Below the pieces are notes generated by a model. That model saw nothing but the letters and a program-made list of their open reading frames with translations, did no database searches and was not told the DNA's origin. From NCBI GenBank assembly GCA_028293745.1, contig JAQGOF010000105.1, positions 1-64,000 on the forward strand: a DNA stretch of 64,000 nt, given 5' to 3'. A program made the position numbers and the translations under genes. Positions 1,805 through 64,000 of this stretch are shown here, piece by piece; within the stretch, counting starts at the first letter, position 1; each line of letters starts with the position of its first letter. Source of the stretch: Gammaproteobacteria bacterium. GTDB taxonomy: Bacteria > Pseudomonadota > Gammaproteobacteria > Steroidobacterales > Steroidobacteraceae.

Positions 1805-1865
1805 TGGTACCGGTGTCGAGTACAGCACAACCTGCCCGGCGACTTCGTGCGGAGACGTTTGTATC

Positions 1866-3350
1866 ATGCACGATGTGCAGACCCGACGCGACCTTCTGAT
1901 TGGTGCCGCCCTCGCGGGCAGTGCGCTCGCTTTTCCTCGCTACACGCGAGCCTTTTCACACACCGATCGGCCGACTCGCGATCGGGCGACGTTCGATCGG
2001 GCAACTCTGCGGCCCCCTGCCAATCAGCGCACCTTCTCGAGCCCGGCGGTTGAGGAAACTCTCCACCGCGTCAAGTCCAGAATTGCCGATCCGGAGCTCG
2101 CGTGGCTGTTTGAGAACTGCTATCCGAATACGCTCGATACGACAGTCACGCTCACGGATCTTGCCGGAAAGCCCGACACGTTCATTGTGACCGGCGACAT
2201 ACCCGCGATGTGGCTGAGAGACTCCTCGGCCCAGGTGTGGCCATATCTGCCCCTGGCGCGATCTGATGAGACCCTGCGGCGAATGTTCCACGGGCTGATC
2301 CACCGCCATGCCCGCTGCATTCAGATCGATCCGTACGCGAATGCCTTCCAGCGCGACCCGCACGGGACGCAGTCGCTCGGCTGGGCTGCAACGGACAAGA
2401 CCGACATGAAACCGGGAGTGGCGGAGCGCAAGTGGGAGATCGATTCGCTGTGCCACCCCATCCGCCTGGCTCATGGCTACTGGCGAGCAACGGGTGACAT
2501 CGAGCCATTCGACGGGGAATGGCGTGAGGCGATGGCGCTCATCGTCAAAACCTTCCGCGAGCAACAACGGCGTGGAGGGCCTGGCCCTTACCAGTTTCAG
2601 CGCGCATCCGAAAATCCGAACGACACGCTAGGCGGGAACGGCTATGGTGCGCCCACACGGCCAGTTGGCCTGATCCATTCGATGTTCCGGCCATCCGACG
2701 ATGCCTGCGTCTATCCTTTCCTCATTCCGGCGAATCTGTTCGCAGTGCGCAGTCTTCGCGACCTTGCGGCAATGACTCGAACGATGCAGGCGGACAAGTC
2801 CTTTGCGGCTGAGTGCGAGACCCTGGCGACAGAGGTCGAAGCGGCATTGATGGCGCACGGGCGGATACGCGATGCACACGGGAATGCGTTTTTCGCGTAT
2901 GAAACCGATGGCTTCGGTAACACGCTGTTCATGGACGATGCCAACATTCCCGGATTGATGAGTCTTGCCTATCTGGGGTGTTGTGAGCGTGATGATCCCG
3001 TTTATGCGAACACGCGCAAACGAGCGTGGAGTGAGAGCAATCCATACTTCTTCAACGGAACTGCCGCGAGCGGCGTGGGCGGGCCGCATGTGGGCCTCAA
3101 GATGATCTGGCCGATGTCGATCATGATACGTGCCCTGACCAGCGAGAGCGACGCAGAGATCCGCGAATGCCTGGTTTGGCTGAAGCGCTCGAATTCAGCG
3201 ACTGGTTTCATGCATGAGGCTTTCGACAAGGACGATCCGTCTCACTTTACGCGGCCGTGGTTCGCGTGGGCGAACGGACTATTCGGCGAGCTGATCATCG
3301 ATCTGAGCGAGCGTAAGCCGGCGTTGCTGAACAGCGCATTACACGCCTAA
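1866..3350 (+). CDS. exo-alpha-1,6-mannosidase-like glycoside hydrolase family 125
   Basis: 494 residues. The frame is open further upstream, but ATG 1866 opens a protein starting [20 protein letters not shown], with a Tat-like TRRD-LL pattern and hydrophobic segment, so it is preferred. The body carries the GH125 hallmark [18 protein letters not shown] (about residues 108-125), then [44 protein letters not shown] near the middle, and FGELI near the end. The length of about 450 mature residues is normal for the family. GH125 enzymes cleave non-reducing alpha-1,6-linked mannose, as found in N-glycan cores. It sits 10 bases before the GH92 gene and almost certainly shares its transcript. Tat export suggests folding before transport to the periplasm. 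Confidence 0.9.
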
Positions 3351-3360
3351 GGAATCGTAC

Positions 3361-48052: not shown

Positions 48053-49615
48053 ATGACGAGGGCAGTTGTCATGCTAACGGAAAAACAGCTGGCCGCAGCA
48101 TGCCTGGCCCTGATCGACCGCGGTGCCGGGCTCTCCTCGATGCAGAGGACGCTCCTTAAAGAGATCCAAAGAGGAGGCGATCCGCTCGGGGAGGCGTTCT
48201 CCTCGCTACGCTCAGCAGCCGTGCAGCGTGCGGCTGGCGCGATTTATACACCCGCTCCCATTGTCCGTTCGATGATGAGTTGGCTTGCGGCTCAAGGTCA
48301 GCCCGCCCGTATCGTGGATCCGGGGGCCGGTTCCGGCCGCTTTATCATGGCGGCCGGCCAGGTGTTCCCCGATGCACACCTGGTTGCCGTCGAGACGGAT
48401 CCGCTCGCTGCTCTCACGTTGCGCGCCAATCTGAGTTGTCGTGGTTGGATGGATCGCACGACGATCATGGTGAAGGATTACCGGGATGTTCAGCTGCCCG
48501 CTCCGAGCGGGGGCATCACGGCCTTTGTTGGCAATCCTCCCTATGTGCGGCATCACGGCATCAGCGAAAAGTGGAAAACATGGTACGCCGCGCGCTTCGC
48601 TGGACTAGGGATCAAGGCGAGCGCGCTCGCGGGTTTGCACCTGCACTTCTTCTTGCAGACGCGATTGTTGGCGCGGGAGGCAGACATCGGCGCATTCATC
48701 ACATCGGCTGAGTGGCTGGATGTCAACTATGGGACCGCCCTGCGCGAATTGTTTCTGACCGAGTTGGGCGGGGTCGCCTTGCACGTTCTGAAGCCGACAG
48801 TCGAAGCCTTTCCCGGCATAGCGACAACCGCCGCAGTTACGTGTTTTCGAGTGGGCGAGACGGCTTTGCCAGTGCGTGTCTGCTCCGTGGATTCCCTCTG
48901 TGATCTGAATGGCTTGAATAAAGGCGTGGACATACCACGTGAGAGACTGACGGCAGCGCGGCGCTGGTCAGCTATCGTTGAGCCATCGCCTTCGGGGTCT
49001 GAGGGAGACATAGAGCTTGGCGAACTGTTCCGGGTACATCGCGGACAGGTTACGGGAGCGAATGCCGTCTGGATCGCCGGCGAGCACGCCGAGGGGCTTC
49101 CCGATAACATTAAGCTTCCCGCTGTCACGAAAGCGAGGGAGCTGATCAGAGCCGGCGCGCATCTGCGCTCAGCCGATGCCCTCAGGCGGGTTATCGACCT
49201 GCCACCCGAGCTCGATGAGTTTACGCGCGAGGAGCGAAGGCGCATCGCCACGTTTCTGCGCTGGGCAAAGAAGCAGGGCGCCGACCAGGGATATATCGCG
49301 CAGCATCGCAAGCCGTGGTGGTCCGTGGGACTCAAGTCGCCCGCGCCGATACTGTGCACATACATGGCGCGCCGACCGCCACAGTTCACGCTGAACGCCT
49401 GCAAAGCGCGACACATCAACATCGCACACGGCCTGTATCCGCGCGCGGCTGTGTCGGCTGCCGCACTGACTCGGCTGGTGACCTGGTTGAACAAGAACAT
49501 TCAGAAGAGCAGCGGCAGGACCTATTCGGGCGGGTTGACGAAGTTTGAGCCGAAGGAGATTGAGCGGTTGCGCATCCCACATCTCGAAACCCTGTTGGCC
49601 GGCAGCTTCGGCTGA
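48053..49615 (+). CDS. N6-adenine-type DNA methyltransferase, solitary
   Basis: 520 residues from ATG 48053 (ATG 48071 is possible). SAM-binding motif I VDPGAGSGRF at about 88-97, the acidic partner VETDPLAALTL, and the catalytic motif IV NPPY at 161-164, followed by VRHHGISEKW. After LHLHFFLQTRLLAREADIGAFITSAEWLD, the C-terminal half (about 270-520) carries the target-recognition-like region with IAQHRKPWWSVGLKSPAPILCTYMARRPP, ending in KFEPKEIERLRIP. This layout matches TaqI/Eco57I-like gamma-class m6A methyltransferases. There is no restriction subunit, helicase or nuclease nearby, so it is probably an orphan modifier or a lone defence remnant. It starts 3 bases after the outer-membrane factor gene stop. 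Confidence 0.85.
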   Translation: MTRAVVMLTEKQLAAACLALIDRGAGLSSMQRTLLKEIQRGGDPLGEAFSSLRSAAVQRAAGAIYTPAPIVRSMMSWLAAQGQPARIVDPGAGSGRFIMAAGQVFPDAHLVAVETDPLAALTLRANLSCRGWMDRTTIMVKDYRDVQLPAPSGGITAFVGNPPYVRHHGISEKWKTWYAARFAGLGIKASALAGLHLHFFLQTRLLAREADIGAFITSAEWLDVNYGTALRELFLTELGGVALHVLKPTVEAFPGIATTAAVTCFRVGETALPVRVCSVDSLCDLNGLNKGVDIPRERLTAARRWSAIVEPSPSGSEGDIELGELFRVHRGQVTGANAVWIAGEHAEGLPDNIKLPAVTKARELIRAGAHLRSADALRRVIDLPPELDEFTREERRRIATFLRWAKKQGADQGYIAQHRKPWWSVGLKSPAPILCTYMARRPPQFTLNACKARHINIAHGLYPRAAVSAAALTRLVTWLNKNIQKSSGRTYSGGLTKFEPKEIERLRIPHLETLLAGSFG

Positions 49616-51276: not shown

Positions 51277-51747
51277 CTATTTCGCCGCTGCGCGCTGGCT
51301 GCGGAAGTCCGACAAATTGCCGGCTATGGCGTCCAGGAGCGCGTCCAGCTTCTCCAGGTCCTCAGAGTCGAAGCCGGCGAATATCGCCGCTTCGTGGATC
51401 TTTGCAAGCTCGTCCAGTTTGTCCAGCAGGGGCTGCGCGGCCGGCGTCAGAAAAACGCAGTACGCGCGGCGATCGGTCGGATTTTCCTCTCTCCTGAGAT
51501 ACCCTTCATCGCAAAGGCGATCGATCAGGCGGCCCGCGGTGATCTCCCTGACTTCGAGCGCTTCCGCGATCAGTCGCTGCGTTGCGCCGGGGTTGCGCGC
51601 GACCGCCGCGATGAGGGTCCACCGTGCCCGGGTCAACCCGCTTCGCTCGGCGCTCTGATCGAACGTCACGCGCAGTTGGCGAGCAACCACCGTCAATTTC
51701 AATGCAACGGATCTTCTTCGACTTCTCTGTGCCGCGATGATTGACAC
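51277..51747 (-). CDS. MarR-family transcriptional regulator
   Basis: 156 residues from ATG 51747. Typical layout: LTRARWTLIAAVARNPGATQRLIAEALEVREITAGRLIDRLCDEGYLRREENPTDRRAYCVFLT, where the recognition helix and DRR wing are clear, then a C-terminal dimer helix. One Cys in the HTH and one in the wing could be redox-active, but there is no OhrR-type N-terminal Cys. The target is unknown; nothing lies close on its own strand downstream except the end of the glutathione peroxidase gene. Confidence 0.88.
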   Translation of the reverse strand: MSIIAAQRSRRRSVALKLTVVARQLRVTFDQSAERSGLTRARWTLIAAVARNPGATQRLIAEALEVREITAGRLIDRLCDEGYLRREENPTDRRAYCVFLTPAAQPLLDKLDELAKIHEAAIFAGFDSEDLEKLDALLDAIAGNLSDFRSQRAAAK

Positions 51748-51865: not shown

Positions 51866-52489
51866 ATGAGCGCCAGCTTGGCGTCGATGAGTAAGGTCGC
51901 CCCGAGAGTCGCCGTATACCCATTTGGCTCGGCGCCCCCGTCGGTGGATCAGGGCTGGATAGCACTTGCACAGCTGCCTCACACGCCAGGCCGTCCTGCG
52001 GTGTTCGGCGACGGATCGCACGCGACTACGTGTCTATGTGCCGCAGCCGTGGACCTGATTTGTCGCCAGCGCCAACCAGAAGCGGTTCTGGATGTAGGAA
52101 CCGGTACCGGTGTGCTTGCCCGGATCGCCCGAGGTCGCGGCGCTCGGTTGATTGTCGGGACGGACATCGATGCGGTTGCCCTGTCTTGCGCCAAGGCGCA
52201 CGCGGATCTCGATGCTCATCCGGTTGAAATCGAGTTCGGCTCCGAAGCGCCCGATCATTGGGGAGCGCGTTTTGATCTCGTGGTCGCGAATATTCTGGAG
52301 GCGCCGCTGCAGGCCCTTGCACCGGCACTATGCCGCGCGTTAGGACCGGGTGGTGTCCTGCTCATAAGCGGATTCACGCGGCCGCAGACGCCCGCGCTGC
52401 GCGTGCTTTACGAGAGCGCGGGGCTGACATTCGCCGGCAATTCAAGCCTCGATGAGTGGGCTCTCTTGACGTTCGCCTCGACGCAGTAG
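51866..52489 (+). CDS. class I SAM methyltransferase, PrmA-like
   Basis: 207 residues from ATG 51866 (GTG 51857 is possible). SAM-binding motif VLDVGTGTGVLARIARGRGARLIVGTDIDAVAL (about 80-112), then the catalytic NILEAPLQALAP and LGPGGVLLISGFTRPQ. The D-V-G-T-G-T-G-V-L and N-I-L-x3-L arrangement is that of ribosomal L11 methyltransferase, but the usual N-terminal domain is shorter and different here, so its protein substrate is uncertain. Its last 48 bases overlap the 3' end of the CofCGH gene on the other strand. Confidence 0.75.
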   Translation: MSASLASMSKVAPRVAVYPFGSAPPSVDQGWIALAQLPHTPGRPAVFGDGSHATTCLCAAAVDLICRQRQPEAVLDVGTGTGVLARIARGRGARLIVGTDIDAVALSCAKAHADLDAHPVEIEFGSEAPDHWGARFDLVVANILEAPLQALAPALCRALGPGGVLLISGFTRPQTPALRVLYESAGLTFAGNSSLDEWALLTFASTQ

Positions 52490-55426
52490 CCCGTCTCCGG
52501 GGGCTCCGACATACAGCGTATTCCGCCGAACCAACACGCGTCCGAGAGAGTTGGCGAGTGCCCGCATATCTTCGACAGTCATCTCCTGCCCATGAATAGC
52601 GCCAGCAGCACGGGTGATGCTTTCGTTCATCAGGGTTCCGCCGAGATCGTCTGCGCCCGCCTGGAGAGCGGCACGCATGCCGTTATGGCCCATCTTCACC
52701 CATGAAGTTTGGATATGAGAGAAGTAGGGATGCAGTACGAGGCGCGCGACGGCATGCATGAGCACAGCCTCCCGAAATGTCGGGCCCGGCCGGGCGCGAC
52801 CACGCTTGTACAGCGGGGCTTCGTGAGCCACGAATGGCAATGGTACGAACTCCGTAAACCCATCTGTGCGCTTCTGTAAATCGCGCAGGGACAGCAGGTG
52901 CCGCGCCCAGGAGCGATAGTCATCGACGTGTCCGAACATGATGGTGGCGGTCGTGCGCAAACCTAAGCTATGAGCAGCATCGATGACCTCGAGCCACTGA
53001 CCGGTGTTGAGTTTGTCCGGGCAAAGCACTTGCCGGACTCCGTCATCAAGAATCTCAGCGGCCGTGCCCGGCAGACTGCCTAACCCCTCGTCCCGCAAGA
53101 GACGCAGGTAAGCGGGTAGGCTGAGCCCGAGCGTAGTCGCGCCATGCAATATCTCAAGCGGTGAGAATGCATGAACGTGGATGGCGGGTACCGCCTTCTT
53201 CACAGCACGCAGAATATCGACATAGGTTTCGCCGGTGAAACTCGGATGAATGCCACCTTGGAGGCACACCTCCGTAGCGCCGCGCATCCAGGCCTCCTGA
53301 ACTCTCGCCCCTATCTCATCCAGTTCCAAAAGATACGGCTTTTCCGCTCCCTCGCGATTGCGTTTGCCCTTCGAGAAGGCACAAAACCCGCAACCATAGG
53401 TGCAAATGTTTGTGTAGTTGATGTTGCGATTTACAACGTACGTAGCGACATTGCCTACCGTGGATGTACGAACATGGTCAGCCGCTTCACAGACGGCCGC
53501 AAAGTCACTGTCCCGTGCCTCGAACAGGCGCTCCACCTCGTCCTCCCCGATGTCCTGCGCACCTTGCTCGATGATGTTTGTGAGCAACTTCGACACTGAC
53601 GCAGAGCGACGGCCATACACGCCGGACACTGGCAATTCTGCCGACCGCCCGGCTCGCCAATAGTCCTCGCGTCCATGGCCACTGCCGTCGCTGAGCTCCA
53701 GCACGCTCCGCCGCATCGCCGGATCAAGCCACATATCGGGCGCGCGAGCGTAGGAGGGGTAGATCGTCAAGCGCTCGGTCAGGATCTTCCCGGCCAGCGC
53801 CGTCTCTTTGTGCAGGCGCTCGATCTGCGGCCACGGCGCCTCCGGATTTACATAGTCGGGGGTTAGCGGCGACACGCCACCCCAATCGTTCACACCGGCC
53901 TCGACCAGGTGCCCCAACACTCCGGGATTGAGGTTGGGCGGAGCCTGAATGTTCATGTAAGGGCCGAACAAAATGCGCGCAACCGACACAGTCCAGACAA
54001 GCTCCTCCAGTGGAGGCGCGATGGCCTTGGTCATGCGCGTGCCGGGCTTCGGCAGAAAGTTTTGGATGATGATTTCCTGGATGTGGCCGTAGCGCTCGTG
54101 AAGCGCCCGGATCGCCAGTAGAGAGTCGATTCGCTCAGCCCGCGTCTCACCAATGCCGATCAAGATGCCCGTGGTGAACGGCACTCTCTGACGGCCAGCT
54201 TCGGCGATGGTCGCCAACCGTACCGCAGGTACCTTGTCGGGCGAACCGTAATGCGGGGCACCTTTCATGCAAAGTCGGTCCGAGACGCTTTCCAGCATCA
54301 ACCCCATTGAGGCCGAGACCGGCCTCAGCATGGCAATCTCTTCGGCAGTCATGCAGCCGGCGTTGATGTGTGGCAGCAGGCCTGTCTGGTCTCGCACGGC
54401 GGCAGCAACGTGCGCGACATAGTGGAGGGTGGTATCAAAACCAGCCTCCGCGAGCCAACTCTTCGCGACGTTGTAGCGCAGCTCGGGCTTTTCGCCGAGC
54501 GTAAAAAGGGCTTCCTTGCATCCTCGTTTCGCTCCTGCCGCCGCCGTGGCGACCGCTTCGTCCACCGACATGAATGGGCGGCCGACGCGGCGCGGCGTCT
54601 TGGCGAAGGTGCAGTAATGGCAGGTGTCGCGGCAGAGCTGGGTCAGCGGCAGGAACACTTTGCGCGAGTAGGTCACAAGCGCACCATGACCGACATCGCG
54701 TAGGCGAGAAGCCCGCGCGACGAGCTCTTCAAGCGCGTCGGTACCGAGGGACAGCGCCTCAGGGCCGAGGGGCAGCGATAAGCCGACAAACGGACGTAAC
54801 CGCGCCGGCACCACACCGCCGGTGAGCCTGTCCAGATCCGCATCGGTGTCCACGTCGAATGCCGCTTCCTGGGAGTGAAGTTCCTTGGCTCGTGGACCTG
54901 CCGCAAGCTGATGGGCCGCAAAACTGGCGGGCCCAAACGCAGGCGTGAACGGCAGCCTGGGATCGATCAACACTACATTCGTCCCCGTACCCTGGCGACA
55001 GCGGACTAAGCCGATGACAGACTCACCTTGGACACGTCGCGATTCGAGATACGCGCAGATCAGAGCATCGACGCCGCGCGGCGATAGTAGAGCGAGATCC
55101 GCGTGGATAATGGCACAGATGTCGCCGCCGCGCGCGCGGATCTCCGCTAGACCATGCGCGCATGCGGTGTTGAGATCCGCTTCCTCTTGAAGCACTTCCG
55201 CGCCCGCTTGTCGCGCCTCATCTGCAACCTCCGGATCGGCAGTCACGACGAGCACACCGGCCACAAGCCGCGAGCCGGCAAGGGCGAACAGCGTTTGGGC
55301 CAGCAGCGCGCGAGCAAAAGCTTCTCGCCGCGGCCCCAGCGCAAGCGCAAGCCTCTGCTTGGACGAGCTGAGCGCCTTGACAGGGACAACTGCCCAGACT
55401 TTCAAACCATGCACTGAGGTACTCAC
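52442..55426 (-). CDS. CofC-CofG-CofH triple fusion, F420 precursor biosynthesis
   Basis: 994 residues from GTG 55426, overlapping the DUF1214-like gene stop as GTGA. Residues about 1-205 form a CofC/FbiD nucleotidyltransferase: VWAVVPVKALSSSKQRLA, IIHADLALLSPRG, GTNVVLIDPRLPFTPAFG, DVDTDADLDRL. Residues about 220-590 are CofG, a radical-SAM domain with CX3CX2C in CRDTCHYCTF, then LLPHINAGCMT and LMLESVS. Residues about 620-985 are CofH with a second cluster motif in CTYGCGFCAF, CLQGGIHPSF, HAFSPLEI and SWVKMGHNGM. CofG and CofH together make the deazaflavin FO; CofC activates the phospho-acid that CofD attaches. In actinobacteria CofG-CofH form FbiC and CofC is separate, so this is an unusual third fusion. 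All catalytic Cys are kept. Confidence 0.9.
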   Translation of the reverse strand: MSTSVHGLKVWAVVPVKALSSSKQRLALALGPRREAFARALLAQTLFALAGSRLVAGVLVVTADPEVADEARQAGAEVLQEEADLNTACAHGLAEIRARGGDICAIIHADLALLSPRGVDALICAYLESRRVQGESVIGLVRCRQGTGTNVVLIDPRLPFTPAFGPASFAAHQLAAGPRAKELHSQEAAFDVDTDADLDRLTGGVVPARLRPFVGLSLPLGPEALSLGTDALEELVARASRLRDVGHGALVTYSRKVFLPLTQLCRDTCHYCTFAKTPRRVGRPFMSVDEAVATAAAGAKRGCKEALFTLGEKPELRYNVAKSWLAEAGFDTTLHYVAHVAAAVRDQTGLLPHINAGCMTAEEIAMLRPVSASMGLMLESVSDRLCMKGAPHYGSPDKVPAVRLATIAEAGRQRVPFTTGILIGIGETRAERIDSLLAIRALHERYGHIQEIIIQNFLPKPGTRMTKAIAPPLEELVWTVSVARILFGPYMNIQAPPNLNPGVLGHLVEAGVNDWGGVSPLTPDYVNPEAPWPQIERLHKETALAGKILTERLTIYPSYARAPDMWLDPAMRRSVLELSDGSGHGREDYWRAGRSAELPVSGVYGRRSASVSKLLTNIIEQGAQDIGEDEVERLFEARDSDFAAVCEAADHVRTSTVGNVATYVVNRNINYTNICTYGCGFCAFSKGKRNREGAEKPYLLELDEIGARVQEAWMRGATEVCLQGGIHPSFTGETYVDILRAVKKAVPAIHVHAFSPLEILHGATTLGLSLPAYLRLLRDEGLGSLPGTAAEILDDGVRQVLCPDKLNTGQWLEVIDAAHSLGLRTTATIMFGHVDDYRSWARHLLSLRDLQKRTDGFTEFVPLPFVAHEAPLYKRGRARPGPTFREAVLMHAVARLVLHPYFSHIQTSWVKMGHNGMRAALQAGADDLGGTLMNESITRAAGAIHGQEMTVEDMRALANSLGRVLVRRNTLYVGAPGDGLLRRGERQESPLIEA

Positions 55427-56658
55427 AAGCTGAAACGCTGCCTGATCCCGTCGAAGCGCTCCCGCATTTGGCGGACTCTTTCCTCGGGCGTGACTCGCGT
55501 CGTGTCTGCAGGCAAAGCGGCTGCCAGCTGGGAGCGCTTGACCACCTCTGTACGAAAGACAGTCTGCGCCTCGCTCATCAGATTCCGATACGTCACGTTG
55601 CCTCGCTCGAAACCCTGCGTGTCCATCCAGTTGTGAAACCCGAGATCATCGTGACTGAGGATCAGCCGGACCTTGCCATCACCATCCACTTTTGTACGGC
55701 TCGGCGTATAGCTCACCGGGCGGTAGAGATAGTCCATGCTGTTGAAGAAGACCCCCATGTTGGTCATCATCCAGAAGCCGCCGTGACTGTCGAACTCGAT
55801 AATCAGGGCCTCGTCGGACCCCAACTGCCAACACATATTCGCAACTGCGCGGCCCCGCCGCTTGTCTGCTGCAGCATCACCCTTCGGCTCCGCCGGAAAG
55901 CGGTTGACGTTCACCGGGTCGACGCTACCGCCGCTGTACTGGTAGGGGTGCTCCGGCCAGTCCTTCATCAGTCCGGTCAGAAACTGTCCCGCCCAATCCA
56001 TCGCGTCCACAATGACCTCGGGTGTCGGTATTGGCCGGGGCTCGGCCATCCCGACACGCTCGATGCGCAGCCGCGCCGGCAGCTCGGTCCAACGGTCAAA
56101 ACCCTGACGCAGGAAGAGTTTGCGCGAGCCAGGCGTCGTGGGCAGCCAATTGGGCCCGCGCCCGGGTCCACCGAGGTACAGCTCGAAGCTACCATCCCAC
56201 CCCGTTTCGAGTTGCTGCCCGAACAGGTTGGCCTCGGGAATGTCGCCGAAGGGCTCGTGCAAGCTGGGCCAGTCGGTTCCGGGCTGTTTTTCGGGCCGCG
56301 GGCCCTGCACGGTGAAGTTCAGAAATCGCGCCGTGCCGCGATTGCCCGCGATCTTGTAAACCGACGCACCGTCAATCCAGGCCTGCTGGTAGATGAAGTC
56401 GGCGCTGTCGCTGCCGAGCTTGCAGAAAGGGGTGCAGAACGCATGCAGGACCGGGAACCGCGTGTCCTTGGTCTCCAGGGCCAGGTCAAAGGCCTGGCCG
56501 AGGTTTTGTGTCAGGAATCGAAACGCGTCCGCCCGGTGCAGCGGCGCTGGCGGGTTGTAATCCTTGAACACCTGGTCCCCGGCCTGCTGCAGGCGTTCAC
56601 AGAACACCCGCCAGGCAGCACGCAAGGCGTCATCGTCGCGACAATCTCCGAAGGCCAT
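55423..56658 (-). CDS. DUF1214-like protein
   Basis: 411 residues from ATG 56658, chosen because it follows the upstream stop by 2 bases with GGGAG just before; an in-frame start 141 bases earlier would extend into the upstream gene. The protein has WRVFCERLQQAGDQVF early, then FLNFTVQGPRPEKQPGTDW, TPGSRKLFLRQGFDRWT and a C-terminal DEALIIEFDSHGGFWMMTNMGVFFNSMDY followed by ILSHDDLGFHNWMDTQGFERGNVTYRN. The E-F-Q/D...W and H-N-W-x-D-T-x-G-F-x-x-G patterns recall DUF1214 proteins, which are frequent in catabolic clusters. Function is unknown. It is coupled to both neighbours in the F420 operon. Confidence 0.65.
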   Translation of the reverse strand: MAFGDCRDDDALRAAWRVFCERLQQAGDQVFKDYNPPAPLHRADAFRFLTQNLGQAFDLALETKDTRFPVLHAFCTPFCKLGSDSADFIYQQAWIDGASVYKIAGNRGTARFLNFTVQGPRPEKQPGTDWPSLHEPFGDIPEANLFGQQLETGWDGSFELYLGGPGRGPNWLPTTPGSRKLFLRQGFDRWTELPARLRIERVGMAEPRPIPTPEVIVDAMDWAGQFLTGLMKDWPEHPYQYSGGSVDPVNVNRFPAEPKGDAAADKRRGRAVANMCWQLGSDEALIIEFDSHGGFWMMTNMGVFFNSMDYLYRPVSYTPSRTKVDGDGKVRLILSHDDLGFHNWMDTQGFERGNVTYRNLMSEAQTVFRTEVVKRSQLAAALPADTTRVTPEERVRQMRERFDGIRQRFSL

Positions 56659-56660
56659 CG

Positions 56661-57527
56661 TCACACTCCCAGCGATCGCAGTATTCCACCGAGATTTTCC
56701 GCCGCCCTGCGAACGGCTGCGACCCTGCCTTCCGCATCGATGCGCGGCCCAATCAACTCGATGTCGAAGGTGCCCGTATATCCGGCATCCAGCATCCACT
56801 GCACGATTCGCTTGACTGGAATAGCGCCGTCTCCGGGAACCGCCCGCGACGGCAAGGACCGATCGCCGTACACGTAATCGCAGACCTGCACGAGATTGCA
56901 GCGCGGCATGGCACGCTCGATCGACTCACGCAACCCAGCTTCGGTCCAGCAAGCAAACAGGTCGATGCATACGCCTACATCCGCCAACTCCGCAAGGGTT
57001 ACCGCGTCGCGCAAAGTATGCGCGATATGTACGTCGGCGTAGAGAGGTGCTGAATTCTCGATCATCAACGGAATGCCGGCCGCCTTTGCCTGCATGACGC
57101 ATGGCGCGAGCGCTGCCCGGAAAGCTTGCGCCGCTTCTTCCCACGCGAGCGAGCCATGACCACCTGTCAGCATGTAGATCGAGCGCGCATGGAGGCTTTT
57201 GGCATCGTGGATCAAGCGCGTCAGCGTGTCGCGCGCATCGCGCCAGGACTCTTCACGTAGTTCCAAATGCCGACCGGGCAGAAACACATGAGTCATGCTT
57301 TCAACACTACAATTGTTCGTTCGAAGCGCCTCCCGTGCCGCAGGAAGCCCTTCCTTCAGCAGAACGTCGCTCGCCAGACTCACGCGACGCGCGCCAAGCT
57401 CGCGACAGAAGCCAGCCAGCTCGCTCAAGGTGGCGCCCGGAAAGCAAACAGCGTGTACGGACAGTCTTTCGTGCATGTCGGTGTCGCCCTGCGATCGGCC
57501 CGGCTCGGGACGCCCGAGCGCCTTCAC
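56661..57527 (-). CDS. sugar-phosphate isomerase/epimerase-like TIM-barrel protein
   Basis: 288 residues from GTG 57527 (GTGA overlap with the sulfotransferase), with ATG 57476 as a shorter option. AP-endonuclease-2-like TIM barrel: VHAVCFPGATLSELAGFCRELGARRVSL, then SIYMLTGGHGSLAWEEAAQAF, IPLMIENSAPLYADVHIAHT with the metal-binding Glu, VGVCIDLFACWTEAGL with the Asp, NLVQVCDYVYGDR, PGDGAIPVKRIVQWMLDAGYTGTFDIELIG with the last metal Glu. It probably isomerises or epimerises a keto-sugar or a similar small molecule using a divalent metal. Its substrate is unknown. Confidence 0.82.
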   Translation of the reverse strand: MKALGRPEPGRSQGDTDMHERLSVHAVCFPGATLSELAGFCRELGARRVSLASDVLLKEGLPAAREALRTNNCSVESMTHVFLPGRHLELREESWRDARDTLTRLIHDAKSLHARSIYMLTGGHGSLAWEEAAQAFRAALAPCVMQAKAAGIPLMIENSAPLYADVHIAHTLRDAVTLAELADVGVCIDLFACWTEAGLRESIERAMPRCNLVQVCDYVYGDRSLPSRAVPGDGAIPVKRIVQWMLDAGYTGTFDIELIGPRIDAEGRVAAVRRAAENLGGILRSLGV

Positions 57528-58693
57528 TTTCGCCGTTCCATCTCCAGCCCGAAGCGTTTCCGATAAGGCTCGAATTGCGCGTGCAGCGCCTCGATGTCCG
57601 CGCCAATCACGTCGGTCGAATACCGAAACTTCCCATACCGGTCAGCCTTGTTGTTTTGCAAATAACTGCGCATGGCGGCCTCGGTCTCAGGGCCAAACGG
57701 CACGCCGCACTTCTCGTAGAAACCGCGGATCGTCCCGACAGGGTCGGCGGTGAAGTCCGGGTATCGAACGTGATGTATGCGGGGATCGTTGATCAACGGG
57801 TTGTTCAGGGTCGCCTGAAAGCTTGCACGGCTGGCGGCCAGGTGTATGCGCGCCTGCTCCTTCCAGTCCACATGGCCGGTCAGCGCTTCCACGAGCTCAC
57901 CCGTGAGGACGATGCGCGAGGCTGTAACCTGGACGGGGTCGCGGTGCACCCAGATGATCCGCGCATCCGGGTAGGTTTCAAACAGGGCCTGCAGCCGCGC
58001 TCCGTGAAAGCCCTTCAGCACCCAGTACTTCTTCGGTCGGCCGAACTGACACTGCTGGAGCATCATCTTGTGCAAGCGGTACTGAGCACGGGGGTCCATG
58101 GGCAAGCCGCCGATGTTCATGCCCATCGGCACGCGCCACCACGCCGTCGGTGTCATCACACGGAAATCGAATGCCCAGGTGCGCTCGCATTCCGGCAGCC
58201 CGTTGCCCAACATGTCGTTGTAGGGATGGCTGATGAGCCACTTGGGGATTCTCTCGAGGATTTCTCTCCAGTCCTGATCGGCGCGGGCGCGCCGAGGATC
58301 ATTGGGTGCAGCCAGGCCGGGAGGCGGCGAGGGGTACATCACTTCCCAGAATCGAAGTGCGCGCCCGTTGGGATCGACAGACAACAGCGCATGGAGCAAG
58401 GTCGTCCCGGAACGCGGCTCTCCGGTCGCAAACAGCGGTTGTTCAATCTTCTCTGCGGCGACGGGCGAGCGCTTGCGGTCTTCCATGAGCTGCAGTCGCG
58501 AGGTCAGGAGCCACGAACAGACCGATGCCGCGGCACGTTGACCGGTCTCATCCATCCGCTGGGCTTGAAGCCAGGACACCGCTTGGCGAAACCTGGCAGG
58601 CAGCGTGTTGTCCCCATAGTCACTCAGACGGGTGTCGGCTTCCGCCTGTGCGAGTAGCGTATCAGCGTTCAGGATTTCGTTACTGGAGTCCAT
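57524..58693 (-). CDS. sulfotransferase-family protein
   Basis: 389 residues from ATG 58693, just 4 bases after the stop of the LLM oxidoreductase gene; an upstream in-frame ATG at 58723 overlaps that gene. The PAPS 5'-phosphosulfate loop is at LFATGEPRSGTTLLHALLSVDPNG (about 85-108) and the 3'-phosphate site at IIWVHRDPVQVTASRIVLTGEL, with HHVRYPDFTADPVGTI-like HVRYPDFTADPVGTIRGFYEKCGVPFG at the end. This fits the bacterial sulfotransferase_3 family. It should transfer sulfate to a hydroxyl of a small molecule such as a steroid or phenol, in the cytoplasm. Placement in the F420 operon is notable. Confidence 0.85.
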   Translation of the reverse strand: MDSSNEILNADTLLAQAEADTRLSDYGDNTLPARFRQAVSWLQAQRMDETGQRAAASVCSWLLTSRLQLMEDRKRSPVAAEKIEQPLFATGEPRSGTTLLHALLSVDPNGRALRFWEVMYPSPPPGLAAPNDPRRARADQDWREILERIPKWLISHPYNDMLGNGLPECERTWAFDFRVMTPTAWWRVPMGMNIGGLPMDPRAQYRLHKMMLQQCQFGRPKKYWVLKGFHGARLQALFETYPDARIIWVHRDPVQVTASRIVLTGELVEALTGHVDWKEQARIHLAASRASFQATLNNPLINDPRIHHVRYPDFTADPVGTIRGFYEKCGVPFGPETEAAMRSYLQNNKADRYGKFRYSTDVIGADIEALHAQFEPYRKRFGLEMERRK

Positions 58694-58697
58694 GTGT

Positions 58698-59816
58698 TCA
58701 CCCAACAAGACGCACGATCTCATCTTCAGCGTCCCGCACCTTTTGGGCGGAGCGCGCCGCGTACTTCAGTCCGGCCATTCCCCCGTAGTCGAGGATCTTG
58801 CAGACGCGCAAGCCGGCTTCCACGTAACCCTTGAGAGTGCGCGCGATCTGTTTGGGCGTGCCATGCGGTACGACTGAGAGGATCGCCTCGACGTTGACCT
58901 GCTTCAACATCGCGAGAATCCGTTCACGCGGCAGTACCTCGGGGTTGATGTCCTGATAGCCGCGCCAGCTATCGCCCAGCGGATGCTCGAAGCCGTGCTG
59001 GCGCATGATCTGTGCTGGAATCTGCAGGACGTAGGCCTTCACGAGAGGCGCTTCGAGTATCTGAGCCAGTTCCGCATCGTTGTCGGCAATCAGACAGGTC
59101 CAGATGAACGCCGGCGTGATGGCCTGGGGATCGCGACCGGCCCGCTCGGCCGAGCTGCGTACCACGTGGAGTTTCTCCGCATAGTCTTCGGGTGAGTAGG
59201 CGCCGGCCGGCCACCAGCCATCGCAATGGCGGCCAATGATGTCCAACATGCGCGGACCGCTGCCTCCCGCCCAGATCCTGGGCACACGTCCCTCGTACGG
59301 CTCGGTGTCCAGGCGTGCGTGCCGCAGCTGGTAGAACTGACCTGAGAAGTCCACCGGTCCTTCGCTTTCCCAGAGCATGCGGATGACCTTGAGCGACTCC
59401 TCGAACCGACCTACAGGTTTGGAGAAGTCGAACCCGTACGGGACGGTGTTTTCCGTTTCACCGCTACCCACCCCAAGTATGAAGCGGCCGCGCGAGATGT
59501 GGTCGATAGTCAATGCGGTCTGTGCCAGCAGGGATGGATGCCGGCGCACGGTATCCACCACGCTGGTTACGATCGGCACATTCTTCGTTAGCGCGGCAAC
59601 AGCTGCGGCTATCGCGAGTCCATCGAGGTGACGGTGTGGCGAAGCAGACGTGGTCGCGAGATCCGTGAACTCCGGCGTCCAGATCGCGTCAGGCCAGAAG
59701 CTCACCATGTGATCCGGAAGCCAGATCGAGTGATAGCGGCCGCTGTCCAACACACCGAGCGTCGATAAGTCCATTGGAAGCGTCGTACGAAAAAAGGCCG
59801 CCGGCTGAATCTTCAT
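58698..59816 (-). CDS. LLM-class F420-dependent oxidoreductase
   Basis: 372 residues from ATG 59816, preceded by AGGGGA; a longer start at 59846 is less likely. TIM-barrel luciferase-like fold: YHSIWLPDHMVSFWPDAIWTPEFTDLATT, NVPIVTSVVDTVRRHPSLLAQTALTIDHISRGRFILGVGSGETENTVPYGFDF, the conserved PRIWAGGSGPRMLDIIGRHCDGWWPAG, and VPHGTPKQIARTLKGYVEAGLRVCKI at the end. These are the signatures of the F420-dependent subgroup (the GSGE and GGSGPR regions). It catalyses hydride transfer between F420H2 and an organic substrate. Together with the biosynthesis genes it argues that the operon both makes and uses F420. Confidence 0.9.
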   Translation of the reverse strand: MKIQPAAFFRTTLPMDLSTLGVLDSGRYHSIWLPDHMVSFWPDAIWTPEFTDLATTSASPHRHLDGLAIAAAVAALTKNVPIVTSVVDTVRRHPSLLAQTALTIDHISRGRFILGVGSGETENTVPYGFDFSKPVGRFEESLKVIRMLWESEGPVDFSGQFYQLRHARLDTEPYEGRVPRIWAGGSGPRMLDIIGRHCDGWWPAGAYSPEDYAEKLHVVRSSAERAGRDPQAITPAFIWTCLIADNDAELAQILEAPLVKAYVLQIPAQIMRQHGFEHPLGDSWRGYQDINPEVLPRERILAMLKQVNVEAILSVVPHGTPKQIARTLKGYVEAGLRVCKILDYGGMAGLKYAARSAQKVRDAEDEIVRLVG

Positions 59817-59981
59817 GATGTCCCCTATCGACGAGTCGCTGCGCAAATCCCTACTCGATGGTCGTCATTCTTTCCCTCGACGCAGGCGCCTCGCAACGCC
59901 GCCGACCGTCGATTTCGGGCCATGTGGCGTTTGGCCGGCACCGCGCAGCCGTCCATCGCCCGTGGGAGTCGCGCCACCCGC
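59817..59981. other. longest gap inside the F420 operon
   Basis: 165 bases between the LLM oxidoreductase start and the CofE stop; no coding segment or hairpin with T-run is obvious. It could hold a second promoter for the five downstream genes. Confidence 0.35.
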
Positions 59982-60737
59982 TTATCGGAAGAGATCTTCC
60001 GCGGGCGGCCGCACCAGCGCCGCTGCAGGGCAATCGTCCGCCTCCCAGCGCAAGCCGCGCACCAACACCGCCGGTACGCCCTCCGCGCCTTCGCCTGTCA
60101 CCAGCCCACCCGCGGCGGCGATCATGTCGCCGAGCGCGACTTGGGTAACCTCGAGCTTGCGCCCGTTACGATCCGCTTCGCCCCTGCGATCGATCAGCGC
60201 AGGCAGCCCGCTCGCGCCGATTGCAACATTGACCACACCCAAGCGCCACGGTCGTCCGAAGCTGTCGCAGATCAGGACTGCAGGCGGTTGAGGCCAGTAC
60301 TCGCCCAGCGCCGTGCGCAGCCGCTGCGCCGATGCGTCCGCATCGAGCGGCAACAGCAGTGCCCGATCTTGACCACCGGGTCCCATGTTGGATCGATCGA
60401 TGCCGGCGTTAGCCATGACATGGCCTGATCGGTGGCGCGTGATCAGCACCTCGGGCGCGGTGCGCACGACGGCGGTTGATTCAGCAAGCACGAGCTCGAC
60501 AAACCTCGCATCTTTGCGCGTAATCGCAGCGAGCTCGATCGCCTTTGGGGACGGCGTGACGCTGGCAAGCTCTACGAACCGTCCCTCCGCTTTGGAGACG
60601 ATCTTCTGAGTCACCATCAGCACGTCGTTTCGTTGAGGGACCAGGTCCGCAGCACTCAGCGCGTGCGCCAGCAGGCGCGCCAGGTCATCGCCCGGTACGA
60701 CCTCACCAATGGCCGAAAGAGGGTGGAGCTCAATCAC
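59982..60737 (-). CDS. cofE: CofE-type coenzyme F420-0:L-glutamate ligase
   Basis: 251 residues from GTG 60737. CofE/FbiB N-terminal fold: MIELHPLSAIGEVVPGDDLARLL, DVLMVTQKIVSKAEGRFVEL with the conserved Lys, VRTAPEVLITRHRSGHVMANAGIDRSNMGPG, where the ANAGID-SN motif binds GTP and metal, ILICDSFGRPWRLGVVNVAIGASGLPAL, and DMIAAAGGLVTGEGAEGVPAVLVRGL. It adds gamma-linked glutamate to F420-0 using GTP. It is the stand-alone CofE form, without the nitroreductase domain that FbiB carries. It is placed 6 bases after the stop of the reductase gene. Confidence 0.92.
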   Translation of the reverse strand: MIELHPLSAIGEVVPGDDLARLLAHALSAADLVPQRNDVLMVTQKIVSKAEGRFVELASVTPSPKAIELAAITRKDARFVELVLAESTAVVRTAPEVLITRHRSGHVMANAGIDRSNMGPGGQDRALLLPLDADASAQRLRTALGEYWPQPPAVLICDSFGRPWRLGVVNVAIGASGLPALIDRRGEADRNGRKLEVTQVALGDMIAAAGGLVTGEGAEGVPAVLVRGLRWEADDCPAAALVRPPAEDLFR

Positions 60738-60743
60738 GGCGCT

Positions 60744-61400
60744 TTACTCATCAGGAGTAACGAGCTGGCCCGTGATGACCACCCCGGCGCCGTCCACCTG
60801 ATAGGTCTTGTTGATGAATATGAGGACGGAGGTCATTGCCTCTGCTGCCGCCGAGTTGGTCAATGCACCGCCGTGAATACCTCGGAGCCCAGTCTGCGCG
60901 ACGAGCTCAACCACCTCAGCGCGGGCGCCTTTGTCGTCGCCGAACACGAGCACGTCGCAGTCGATGTGCTGATCCGTTGCAAGCTTGTGGGCAGCAACAT
61001 TGTGGAAGGCGGACACGACCCTCACGCCCGGACCCAACAGTTTCTGCGCGCGTTGGGCAGCGCTGCCTTCAGGCGGGAGCTGGACCCGCATCACTTTCGG
61101 TGGCACGAGCGGTACGGTGGTGTCGACTACGACTTTGCCGGCAACATGCGGCGCAATCTCGGCCAATGTGAGCTGCTGCGCGGCAAAGGGCACGGTCACA
61201 ATCACGATGCTCCCCGCCATTGCAGCGTCAGCGTTGGCAAGGCCCGTCAGCCCGAACCCAAGCTCAGCCGCGGTGCGGGCCGCGCTTTCCGCCGATCGGG
61301 AGCCAATGATTACTTTGCGTCCGGCTTTGGCCAGCCTGCGGGCGATCGCTGCGCCCAGCTTACCCGTCCCGCCGATTACCGCGATGGTCCTGTCTGACAT
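60744..61400 (-). CDS. F420-dependent NADP reductase-like protein (NPDR/Fno family)
   Basis: 218 residues from ATG 61400; its ATG overlaps the TetR gene stop by one base (TGATG). N-terminal Rossmann NADP site TIAVIGGTGKLGAAIARRLAKAGRKVIIGSRSAESA with the NADP-preferring basic loop, then VTVPFAAQQLTLAEIAPHVAGKVVVDTTVPL and the conserved VVSAFHNVAAHKLATD with H-N in the F420 pocket, then HGGALTNSAAAEAMTSVLIFINKTYQ. It resembles archaeal F420H2:NADP oxidoreductase and bacterial NPDR. It probably shuttles hydride between NADPH and F420 to supply the LLM enzyme. Confidence 0.9.
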   Translation of the reverse strand: MSDRTIAVIGGTGKLGAAIARRLAKAGRKVIIGSRSAESAARTAAELGFGLTGLANADAAMAGSIVIVTVPFAAQQLTLAEIAPHVAGKVVVDTTVPLVPPKVMRVQLPPEGSAAQRAQKLLGPGVRVVSAFHNVAAHKLATDQHIDCDVLVFGDDKGARAEVVELVAQTGLRGIHGGALTNSAAAEAMTSVLIFINKTYQVDGAGVVITGQLVTPDE

Positions 61401-62089
61401 CAGGAGCTCCCGAATCCGAAGTTGGCGCGGCTGCCCTCTTTGATGAAGTCATTGACGGCGGCCGTGATTTCCTCATCGGTCGCGAGTCCCGCAGGGAATA
61501 TCCAGTCCTTGAACATGACACTGGCCAGGACCGCGCCAAAGACGACGCGTACCGTCAGCCTCGGATCGACTTTCGCCCGGCCCTTCAGCCGCAGGCTCAT
61601 GAGGGAGGCGCACCGATCGAAGTAGGTATGCAGGCTGTCGATCGCGGGTTGCGCGGTTCCGGACTCATAGGTCTGCGCCACCACCAGTGAAGCCAGTATC
61701 CCCGAGTTCTCGCGGATGAAGCGCTGCAGCTCCGTTGCATACAGATCAGTCATTTCTGCATTGCTGGCCGCTTTACGGATCTCGGGCATGTGCTGGTTGA
61801 TGAAGTGCGTGAAATGCTGGTCCACCGGCTTGAAGATTGTCTCGCGGAACAGGTTGGACTTCGAGCCGAAATAGCGAAACAGCTGAGCCTCGGTCACATC
61901 CGCGTTGCGAGCGATCGCCGCCGTCGTCGCTCCAGCGAATCCACTGCGCTTGAATTCCTCACGTGCGGCCTGGACGATCCGATTCAATATGTCGTCCCGC
62001 GAACGCCGCGTACGTTTCACCGTACGGGAGCGCCGCCTGCGCGGCGCGACCTGCGAAGCGGCAGCCGTCGAAAGCTTGTTCTTCTGCAA
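61400..62089 (-). CDS. TetR-family regulator of the F420 operon
   Basis: 229 residues from TTG 62089, chosen because AGGAGG lies seven bases upstream; a GTG at 62137 would add 16. A basic N-terminal region (RRRRSRTVKRTRRSRDD) precedes the HTH: ILNRIVQAAREEFKRSGFAGATTAAIARNADVTEAQLFRYFGSKSNLFRETI (about 35-85). The C-terminal ligand domain runs to about 225. It is the first gene of the minus-strand F420 set and is divergent to the Rieske oxygenase gene across a perfect palindrome, so it probably represses both sides. Confidence 0.9.
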   Translation of the reverse strand: MQKNKLSTAAASQVAPRRRRSRTVKRTRRSRDDILNRIVQAAREEFKRSGFAGATTAAIARNADVTEAQLFRYFGSKSNLFRETIFKPVDQHFTHFINQHMPEIRKAASNAEMTDLYATELQRFIRENSGILASLVVAQTYESGTAQPAIDSLHTYFDRCASLMSLRLKGRAKVDPRLTVRVVFGAVLASVMFKDWIFPAGLATDEEITAAVNDFIKEGSRANFGFGSS

Positions 62090-62172
62090 TGCGAATCCTC
62101 CTGCGAAATATTCTGCCAGGCGCCGTGCCCGTTGCACCCCCCAAGGCTTGCCGAGGCTGATATCCTCTCATA

Positions 62173-62190
62173 AGATAGTGAGCACTATCT
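62173..62190. promoter_or_regulatory. perfect TetR-type operator between the F420 operon and the oxygenase genes
   Basis: AGATAGTGAGCACTATCT: 8-base arms around AG with no mismatch. It is 83 bases from the TetR start and 33 bases before the oxygenase start, so one dimer could control both directions. Confidence 0.75.
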
Positions 62191-62222
62191 AGGCGTCTGC
62201 GGCCTGCACCGGGGGAGATACT

Positions 62223-63280
62223 ATGAGTGTCCCATCGCGCAACGTGAATCGGGGAGGCCCGTCGCAGTCTGCTGCAGGGGGGACAGAGTGGCCGCCGAGC
62301 TGGAACGTCCAGCCCCATGGCATCAGTGTCGGCCGCTATATCGATCCCGCCTTCATGCGTCTCGAGTACGAGCGACTCTGGAGTCGCGTGTGGCAGGTGG
62401 CTGCGAGGCTCGATGAGGTCCCGGAAACCGGTGACTACACGACCTACGAGATCGGCGACCAGTCGGTCGTGATCGTGCGAGTGGATCAGTCCACCATCAA
62501 GGCGTACCACAACGTCTGTCCTCATCGGGGTACCGCGCTCGCACAGGGCTCCGGCAGGTTCGGCAGCTGTCGCATCATATGCCCCTTTCACGGTTGGCGC
62601 TGGGACCTGGCCGGTAACAACCAGTTCGTACTCGAGCGGCAGGAGTTTCGCGGGGGCCAGCTGCGCGACAGCGACGTCGCTTTGCGGGCTGTGCAGGTGG
62701 CTGTGTTTGCGGGGTTCGTGTTCATCAACTTCGATCCCAACCCGCAAGCCTTCGACGAATTCATCGCGCCGGTTCGCCCTTTCATCGAGGATCTGGCGAT
62801 CGGCGACATGCACCACTACTGCAGCTGCCGGTGGGGGACCCGGTAGAAGCGATGGCCGCGCGCCTGTCCCTCCTGAACCGACCCCGGAGACCCTTGGGAT
62901 GTGGGGGGGGTGAGGTCTTTATCTTCCCGAATTTCATGATCCTGCCCCAGGCCGGCAATGCCCAGATGTACCGCGCGCGTCCTGATCCGTCCGACCCTGA
63001 CCGCTGCATCTTCGAGATCTACTCCACCAAAACCTATCCCGCATCAACCAAGCCACCCCGTGCCACCGCCGAACGCGTGACCGAGTTGGGCGATCCCGCT
63101 CAACTGCTGCTGATTCCACGCCAGGACCTGGGCAACATTCCCCGGATTCAGAAGGGGCTGCACTCGCGCGGAATTCAGCATACGTGGCTCGCGGCTGACC
63201 AGGAGAAGATCATTCTGAACATGCACCAGGAGCTCGATCGCTATCTGCGCGCCGGCAACTGGAAGGAGGGGGGGACATGA
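62223..63280 (+). pseudogene. Rieske ring-hydroxylating oxygenase alpha subunit, catalytic centre deleted
   Basis: ATG 62223 opens a Rieske domain with C-x-H in YHNVCPHRGTALAQG and C-x2-H in RIICPFHGWRWDLAG (about residues 97-125), then VAVFAGFVFINFDPN and PFIEDLAIGDMHHY, and stops at 62846. From 62831 another frame, reading from GTG, resumes at EVFIFPNFMILPQAGNAQMYRARPD, IFEIYSTKTYP and ends LRAGNWKEGG at 63280. The stretch between, about 130-170 residues in relatives, should hold the mononuclear iron ligands (the N-W-K and H-x4-H region), and it is missing. A G-rich run sits at the junction. Non-functional as written. Its stop overlaps the FAD dehydrogenase start. Confidence 0.8.
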
Positions 63281-64000
63281 GTGATTTCGATGAGGTCTTC
63301 GACTTGGTCGTGGTAGGCAGCGGTGGCGGCTCCATGTGTGCGGGGCTGGTGATGCGATCGGCGGGCAAGGGTGTACTCATTCTCGAGAAGACCGATCTCG
63401 TCGGCGGCACCAGCGCGCGCTCTGGCGGTGTCATGTGGATGCCCAACAATCCGTTCATGAAGCGTGACGGCGTTGAGGACAGCTTCGAAAAGGCAACCAC
63501 TTATCTGGATGCCGTTTTGGGCGATCAAAAGGATGCTCCCGGTGCCTCGCGCGAGCGGCGTCGCACGTACCTGACCGAGGCGCCGCGAATGGTGGATTTC
63601 CTCGGCAGCCAGGGCGTCAAGCTAACGCGCGTCACGGAATGGCCTGATTATTACGACGAGCGTCCCGGCGGGTCGGCGTCAGGACGGACGGTCGTGGCCG
63701 AGCTCTTCGATGCAAACGAGCTCGGGTCATGGAAGCAGAAGTTGCGACCCAGTTTCATTCGGGCGCCGGTACCGGCCACTCTCGAGGAGATGCTGGAGTT
63801 ACCGGGACTCAAGCGCTCCTGGCGGGTCAAGATGCTGCTGCTGAAGCTGGTGGTGCGCGGGATCATTGCCAAAATCACGGGTAAGGATTGGGTGGCAGGG
63901 GGTGCTGCGCTTCAAGGACGCATGCTGCAGGCGGCGGTGCGTACAGGTGTTGAGATTCGAACAGAATCGCCAGTGACCGAGCTCATCGTAGAGGGCGGCG
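63277..64000 (+). CDS. FAD-binding dehydrogenase, 3-ketosteroid dehydrogenase-like (N-terminal part)
   Basis: ATG 63277 (ATGA overlap with the oxygenase remnant, GGAGGGGGGG upstream) starts an open frame that leaves the window at 64000, 241 codons in. FAD Rossmann motif FDLVVVGSGGGSMCAGLVMRSAGKGVLILEK (residues about 8-38), then DLVGGTSARSGGVMWMPNNPFM, the G-G-T-S-x-R-S-G-G pattern seen in fumarate-reductase and 3-ketosteroid delta-1-dehydrogenase flavoproteins. Later are YLTEAPRMVDFLGSQGVKLTRV and, near the edge, GGAALQGRMLQAAVRTGVEIRTESPVTELIVEGG, the strand that closes the FAD site. The substrate is unclear without the C-terminal half. It is downstream of the operator shared with the F420 operon. 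Confidence 0.85.
   Translation, partial: MSDFDEVFDLVVVGSGGGSMCAGLVMRSAGKGVLILEKTDLVGGTSARSGGVMWMPNNPFMKRDGVEDSFEKATTYLDAVLGDQKDAPGASRERRRTYLTEAPRMVDFLGSQGVKLTRVTEWPDYYDERPGGSASGRTVVAELFDANELGSWKQKLRPSFIRAPVPATLEEMLELPGLKRSWRVKMLLLKLVVRGIIAKITGKDWVAGGAALQGRMLQAAVRTGVEIRTESPVTELIVEGG

Follow-up and report, generated by a model that had tools for sequence, protein, structure and literature searches.

The window analyzed here, a 64,000-nucleotide stretch of one contig (C204) from a gammaproteobacterium of the Steroidobacteraceae, carries a minus-strand operon (52442–62089) for making and recycling coenzyme F420, which probably forms part of a gene cluster, regulated and dependent on F420, that would degrade an alicyclic (steroid- or terpenoid-like) compound and carry its own cofactor supply. 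The identities and order of the genes, the complete set of F420 genes in the genome, the co-occurrence of cluster and F420 genes in four genomes and a palindrome repeated on the contig can be read directly from the sequence. The operon is unusual in that cofD is displaced from it by four other genes and in that CofC is fused to CofGH.

Gene content and divergent promoter of the operon

The operon comprises eight open reading frames, all on the minus strand and all present in the content and order described by a first-pass annotation of the same DNA. The first gene encodes a TetR-family regulator (61400–62089; PF00440), with a TTG start codon after an AGGAGG sequence. It is followed by Fno/NpdG, an NADPH:F420 oxidoreductase (60744–61400) that is over the cut-off of TIGR01915 npdG (186.7 against 149.8 bits) and has the F420:NADP oxidoreductases 5n2i and 1jax as its top PDB matches, and by the F420-0:gamma-glutamyl ligase CofE (59982–60737; TIGR01916, 247.8 against 180.7 bits), each of the two being a single match genome-wide. 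CofE is a single-domain protein of 251 amino acids with PF01996 as its sole Pfam match and lacks the nitroreductase fusion of the mycobacterial FbiB type. The next four genes encode LLM1, a luciferase-like hydride transferase and probable F420-dependent oxidoreductase (58698–59816; PF00296, Bac_luciferase); a sulfotransferase (57524–58723; Sulfotransfer_3, PF13469, 92 bits over the Pfam threshold); a xylose-isomerase-like TIM barrel, epimerase/isomerase-like (56661–57476; PF01261, AP_endonuc_2); and a DUF1214-like protein (55423–56664). The last gene (52442–55426, with the start codon corrected to GTG 55426) is a single-ORF fusion of CofC, CofG and CofH, that is, of the guanylyltransferase and FO synthase, in which all three domains are over the NCBIfam cut-offs (TIGR03552, 120.9 against 105 bits; TIGR03550, 493.9 against 213; TIGR03551, 547 against 374). 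The radical-SAM CX3CX2C motifs of CofG and CofH are intact, and the aspartates in the HADL and DVDT stretches of CofC, which we take to be functionally important, are in place.

The family labels given earlier hold to differing degrees: Fno, CofE and the three parts of the fusion pass equivalog cut-offs, the TetR, sulfotransferase, TIM-barrel and LLM proteins fit broad families, and the DUF1214 label is weak but fair (PF06742 at 19.5 bits against a cut-off of 25; PDB chain 6ans E, to which no function is assigned, at E = 2.9e-43; some plasmid homologues annotated DUF1214). Of the claim that F420 is made, recycled and used within one unit, making (CofC-G-H and CofE) and recharging (Fno) stand, together with a TetR gene of the unit's own, whereas use by LLM1 is only probable.

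The tight packing of the genes is likewise as first described. Neighboring frames overlap by 1 base (Fno/TetR), 26 bases (sulfotransferase/LLM1), 4 bases (DUF1214/TIM barrel) and 4 bases (CofC-G-H/DUF1214), and the remaining gaps are of 6 bases (CofE–Fno), 47 bases (TIM barrel–sulfotransferase, counted from ATG 57476; position 57479 is no start codon, and either ATG 57476 or GTG 57527 fits) and 165 bases (LLM1–CofE), the last of which could hold another promoter. Rfam and tRNA scans gave no match anywhere in the window.

Upstream of the TetR gene, a 133-base divergent region (62090–62222) contains a perfect 8-2-8 palindrome, AGATAGTG-AG-CACTATCT (62173–62190), a candidate TetR operator. It is the sole match at up to three mismatches in the window, where 0.06 are expected, and its arms occur exactly at two places in 100 kb of the contig, 62173 and C204:95996–96013 (5e-6 exact copies expected). 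At up to two mismatches it is found at one other place in 2.7 Mb of fetched DNA (in locus L057) and was not found in the corresponding clusters of the other genomes described below. TetR is predicted to bind this palindrome. On the plus strand, the region leads into a Rieske oxygenase alpha-subunit-like gene (62223–63280), which is divided into two overlapping frames, 62223–62846 (PF00355 on this first part) and 62831–63280 (which we read as part of the same gene), and is therefore frameshifted or misassembled. Next comes an FAD enzyme resembling 3-ketosteroid-delta-1-dehydrogenase (63277–63999, on to C204:65019, plus strand); we label it KSTD-like only, because it scores 683.9 bits against the NF009478 equivalog cut-off of 789. 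Two closely similar MarR-family genes, approximately 16 kb apart, flank the operon and the dehydrogenase (51277–51747 and C204:67380–67877, the latter equivalent to L166:5381–5878).

Elsewhere in the window, fucosidase, GH125 and GH92 genes stand in a row reminiscent of N-glycan breakdown (413–5712 and 27240–28415), the fucosidase-like gene at 27240 matching the C-terminal part of its family model only, and, downstream of an RND pump gene, an ORF (48053–49615) weakly matches Eco57I and N6-methylase domains.

A catabolic-looking cluster linked to F420 genes in four genomes

A catabolic-looking cluster of approximately 35 kb borders the operon on the same contig and runs to about C204:98500. Past the end of the window it consists of the rest of the KSTD-like gene, a second luciferase-like gene (LLM2, C204:64995–65903), SDR1, MarR, thiolase, amidohydrolase and DUF2889-like genes (the last at 22.9 bits against a cut-off of 25). 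Further along are a lipid-transfer-type thiolase with its OB-fold partner, a P450, a TonB receptor, a double acyl-CoA dehydrogenase, genes resembling enoyl-CoA hydratase, ALDH, alkyl-sulfatase and a second sulfotransferase, and CysD and CysNC; the hydratase, ALDH and second sulfotransferase were named by the family matches of their orthologues or by similarity. By family names, the combination of dehydrogenase, P450, OB-fold/thiolase and amidohydrolase genes resembles steroid or terpenoid degradation.

CysD and CysNC, which belong to PAPS synthesis, lie approximately 32–35 kb from the sulfotransferase gene of the operon. A plasmid of Paraburkholderia sprentiae carries DUF1214, sulfotransferase, VOC, CysQ, CysD and CysN genes in a row (L125:6752–13268), likely a PAPS-fed sulfation module, and the plasmid search also placed DUF1214 and sulfotransferase genes side by side in Novosphingobium sp. 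PP1Y (by match positions only). The CysD and CysNC genes here and the CysQ/CysD/CysN arrangement of P. sprentiae together hint that PAPS may really be used.

Three other genomes share a large part of this cluster and have F420 genes within it: Pseudomaricurvus sp. HS19, placed in the Cellvibrionaceae by tree labels, and G619 and G630, which represent another genus of the family and in which CofGH lies 12–13 kb from the thiolase gene. In HS19, Fno, the fused CofC-G-H, a sulfotransferase, a DUF7064-like protein, SDR1 and LLM2 are encoded consecutively, CofE and CofD run divergently, and the same catabolic genes as on the window contig stand on both sides. Twelve catabolic genes of HS19 are reciprocal best hits of genes on the window contig at 56–79% identity (among them the thiolase-like gene at 79, the amidohydrolase at 76, SDR1 at 72, LLM2 at 63 and the dehydrogenase at 62%), and the F420 proteins are less alike (CofD 49, CofC-G-H 50, CofE 55 and Fno 63%). 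There are 11 such hits at 65–85% in G630 and 22 at 61–86% in G619, and the KSTD-like dehydrogenase has a reciprocal best hit in all three genomes. These numbers were reduced from raw counts of 24 (HS19), 25 (G630) and 47 (G619), obtained from a simple ORF list, by dropping antisense or nested ORFs, F420 genes, a short ORF, a MarR match at 58%, sulfotransferase matches at 31 and 34% and weak partial matches to TonB (33%), Rieske (33%) and AMP-ligase (32%) proteins.

The pairing of particular genes also recurs. LLM2 and SDR1 stand beside F420 genes in HS19, G619 and the same-genus genome G035, and in G630 LLM2 does so without a called SDR1. The order in G619 is sulfotransferase, DUF7064-like, SDR1, LLM2, another LLM and CofGH, and in G035 an SDR1-LLM2 pair precedes CofC-CofGH, with the thiolase gene on a contig without F420 genes. 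Sulfotransferase genes are present in the G630 and G619 clusters as well, and the DUF7064-like proteins of HS19, G619 and G630 are 53–77% identical (with a sub-threshold Pfam match); no DUF7064-like gene was found on C204:48000–100000. For LLM1, the operon's sulfotransferase, the TIM barrel and the DUF1214-like protein, no orthologue was seen in the HS19, G630 or G619 clusters. The earlier view that the operon serves a specialized pathway is strengthened by the recurrence of F420 genes inside the same catabolic cluster in these three genomes.

At E values up to 1e-75, LLM2 was detected in one of 369 genomes of the class, the window's own. An E-value limit of 1e-60, applied to 50 chosen genomes (48 of which carry the surveyed F420 loci), gave LLM2 in 4; for two of these four, Sphingobium scionense (L185) and a Caulobacteraceae MAG (L186), the stretch fetched around the orthologue showed no such catabolic cluster. 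A search of 217 family genomes gave the thiolase gene in 4, each of which encodes CofGH. Eleven other family genomes have CofGH and no thiolase gene among the matches listed (8 of the 11 fall outside the listed part), and the window's own genome and G035 are the only thiolase carriers out of 13 in the family whose CofE match is clear. Six genomes without the thiolase gene have no CofGH (0/6) but are no fair control, because the absence of CofE from them was already known. Within these few genomes, the cluster thus implies F420 genes and not the reverse.

Completeness, prevalence and ancestry of the F420 genes

The absence of cofD from the window had raised the concern that F420 biosynthesis was incomplete. 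A profile search of the rest of the genome allays it: an intact cofD lies on contig C86 (32610–33512; 303.4 against 257.5 bits, no internal stop) and is the sole match. With CofC, CofG, CofH, CofD and CofE all encoded, the pathway is complete by predicted gene content. The genome contains three CofC-family matches over the cut-off (the window, C15:597–1145 and C124:62857–63429) and a second CofGH, split across the ends of contigs C15 and C98 and adjoining the C15 CofC. The two ends share an exact 127-base overlap and the GC content of the C15, C98, C86 and C204 stretches is 0.61–0.62 (0.64 for the C124 stretch with the third CofC); contamination as the origin of the second CofGH was therefore set aside, and the halves were treated as a single gene belonging to the genome. 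By tetranucleotide correlation, the genome's own contigs were not clearly distinguishable from same-genus contigs. Assembly completeness is 91% and contamination 2.5%, such that another copy may be missing. Two same-genus genomes, G003 and G045, likewise have two distinct CofGH each, one in each of two subclades (L169, L174, L170, L171).

The nearest solved relative of the CofC domain is 7p97, a CofC of the 3PG type known from the 3PG-F420 of Mycetohabitans rhizoxinica, but the diagnostic residues differ: aligned to 7p97, the window's CofC has Gly at the Ser162 position and Thr at the His145 position. According to the excerpted text of PMC8764529, the 3PG-F420 pathway is marked by Ser or Thr at the Ser162 position. 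The 3PG route was rejected on this residue, and the fused CofC is therefore predicted to use PEP or 2-phospholactate.

The first-pass annotation had considered F420 uncommon in Proteobacteria, a view that our survey does not support. Relatives of CofC-G-H are encoded in at least 583 of 591 candidate stretches, and most of the 80 loci kept from these have proteobacterial titles, in agreement with the review PMC8498797. The trait is patchy among relatives, because CofE occurs in 21 of 99 of them (the genome itself included, and G054 by a weak partial match), and within the family 13 of 61 genomes gave a clear CofE match. Nor is a neighborhood that both makes and uses F420 special in itself, as had been supposed, since an LLM gene lies near 47 of 79 F420 loci (kept from the at least 583, in fetched stretches of up to 10 kb on each side). 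Among the 80 loci kept of at least 583, the order Fno-CofE-CofD-CofCGH is found in 36, and CofD is next to CofE, in order among these genes, in all 57 that bear CofE. The same holds closer to home, CofD being present in 13 of 14 CofE loci of family and order relatives (the exception, L114, is on a 6.3-kb contig). The window, with cofD on C86, departs from this arrangement. A CofC-CofGH fusion is seen in 7 of 88 loci with CofG and CofH in one ORF, the window counted; 22 of the 88 have no CofC in the fetched stretch, and L053 and L112, the same locus, are both counted.

So regular an arrangement lends some weight to the reading that this is an ordinary F420 operon in which the LLM, sulfotransferase, TIM-barrel and DUF1214 genes are chance passengers at the usual place of cofD and the catabolic cluster is a chance neighbor. 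The frequency of LLM genes near F420 genes and the 165-base gap between CofE and the inserted genes are compatible with it, as is the genome G035, in which relatives of LLM1 (58%) and the sulfotransferase (59% identical) are adjacent on a 5.9-kb contig without F420 genes (a contig that starts inside the LLM gene). We nevertheless judge this reading unlikely: the inserted genes overlap or nearly do so, with a 4-base overlap into CofC-G-H; in HS19, G630 and G619 a largely matching cluster encloses F420 genes; and a sulfotransferase gene, present in these three clusters, occurs in 1 of the 79 named F420 loci kept from at least 583, that of HS19.

Trees of 95, 38 and 41 sequences place the second CofGH of the genome with its genus and the window's CofGH outside the genus clade. 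Constraining the latter to the genus (with HS19 and L020) was rejected (p 0.021), as was constraining it to a distinct clade whose members, Proteobacteria that are uncultured and mostly aquatic, encode CofC, CofG and CofH in one ORF (L025, L028, L045 and L072; p 0.015). CofE groups with three loci of this fused clade (support 92), and Fno is nearest to the same three. The operon therefore looks to be of mixed ancestry, and its FO synthase is a second copy unlike the other. A single origin of the fusion, with all fused rows held together, was rejected (AU p 0.0003), suggesting that it arose at least twice. In the 41-row tree, the CofGH of the four clusters occupy three positions (the window, G630 with G619, and HS19) and one clade for them was rejected (AU p 5.6e-5); the linkage is therefore not one shared inheritance. 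The trees were quick and contain long branches, the AU tests used 38, later 41, hand-chosen rows, and rows with coverage below 75% or from duplicate loci were left out, as was L053, a copy of the G043 locus, in one comparison.

This result bears on a second alternative, namely that FMN is the cofactor of the LLM enzymes and of the cluster, that the F420 gene set serves some other process and that shared transfer explains the linkage. LLM1 matches F420 subfamilies best, yet all below their cut-offs (TIGR03619 at the top with 132.4 against 166.9 bits, among the best 25 models listed), and FMN and F420 enzymes both occur among the PDB matches of LLM2, the best of them FMN-type or unassigned, as FMN use would predict. 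Against it, the eleven best NCBIfam models of LLM1 are all F420 families, as are the two best of LLM2, which is over the F420 cut-off (TIGR03619, 232.8 against 166.9 bits), and one shared transfer does not account for linkage to CofGH genes without common ancestry. The PDB list of LLM1 is headed by the F420 enzymes Mer, Adf and Fgd; its AlphaFold model was too poor for a fold search (mean pLDDT 61, 149 of 372 residues below 50). We conclude that FMN use is decidedly improbable and that LLM1 and LLM2 are likely F420 users.

Genes for sulfotransferases, P450s, SDRs and LLM enzymes are common in antibiotic-type clusters. That the operon is biosynthetic, using F420 as reductant to make a sulfated secondary metabolite in the manner of some actinobacterial antibiotic clusters, would fit these genes and the nearby CysD and CysNC, but it is very doubtful given the degradation-type surroundings (KSTD-like dehydrogenase, acyl-CoA dehydrogenase, enoyl-CoA hydratase, thiolases, TonB receptor and aldehyde dehydrogenase) and the lack of any polyketide, peptide or terpene synthase among the cluster genes scanned, which were part of the ORFs.

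A proposed role and its relation to known systems

We propose that the operon is the cofactor-supply arm of the catabolic cluster. The fused FO synthase and CofC, with CofE and the distant CofD, would make F420, which Fno would recharge from NADPH; LLM1 and, 3 kb away, LLM2 would then move hydride via F420 on or off an alicyclic intermediate, and the dehydrogenases, P450, OB-fold/thiolase pair and other neighbors would degrade the steroid- or terpenoid-like substrate. The PAPS-supplied sulfotransferase may activate or protect a hydroxyl group. TetR would probably control the operon, the divergent Rieske and dehydrogenase genes and a unit 34 kb away via the shared palindrome.

The enzymes of the operon are those of the Fno-CofE-CofD-CofC-FbiC operon of Cupriavidus, Bradyrhizobium and Pseudomonadales, in the same order but for CofD; compared with the usual proteobacterial operon, cofD is on another contig with four genes in its stead, CofC and CofGH are fused and a TetR gene stands at the head. 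The npd gene layout of picrate degradation includes Fno. As in that system, hydride transfer by an LLM-type enzyme, here predicted from the genes, would occur in an aerobic catabolic setting; unlike it, the operon includes F420 biosynthesis genes, no nitroaromatic genes were identified and the host is Gram-negative. In Rhodococcus, Nocardia and Nocardioides, picrate (2,4,6-trinitrophenol) is degraded by an F420H2-dependent LLM-type reductase, as described in the excerpted text of PMC8498797. The catabolic plasmid pDK3 of Rhodococcus sp. DK180 also resembles the cluster, with amidohydrolase, P450, OB-fold, F420 LLM and DUF2889 genes side by side, but no F420 biosynthesis genes are annotated in the pDK3 stretch shown, the amidohydrolase is only 39% identical and the pDK3 LLM belongs to a different subfamily, TIGR03617. 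No published description of the cluster itself was found, judged by titles and abstract openings, which is no proof that it is unpublished.

More tentatively, and with the balance of our own judgment somewhat against it, a conserved degradation cluster for a polycyclic lipid may be so dependent on F420 that F420 genes of differing ancestry joined it on several occasions, here as a TetR-controlled second FO synthase–CofC fusion, and PAPS-dependent sulfation and F420-dependent hydride transfer may be linked in one undescribed pathway. According to a 2021 review, no F420-using or F420-reducing enzyme of bacteria outside the Actinobacteria had been studied experimentally, and the role of F420 there needs work (PMC8498797). 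The presence of the cluster in a named strain, Pseudomaricurvus sp. HS19, makes the role of F420 in these bacteria testable by growth and knockout, and its linkage with F420 genes of different ancestry would be unusual evidence for selection that keeps a pathway and its cofactor supply moving together.
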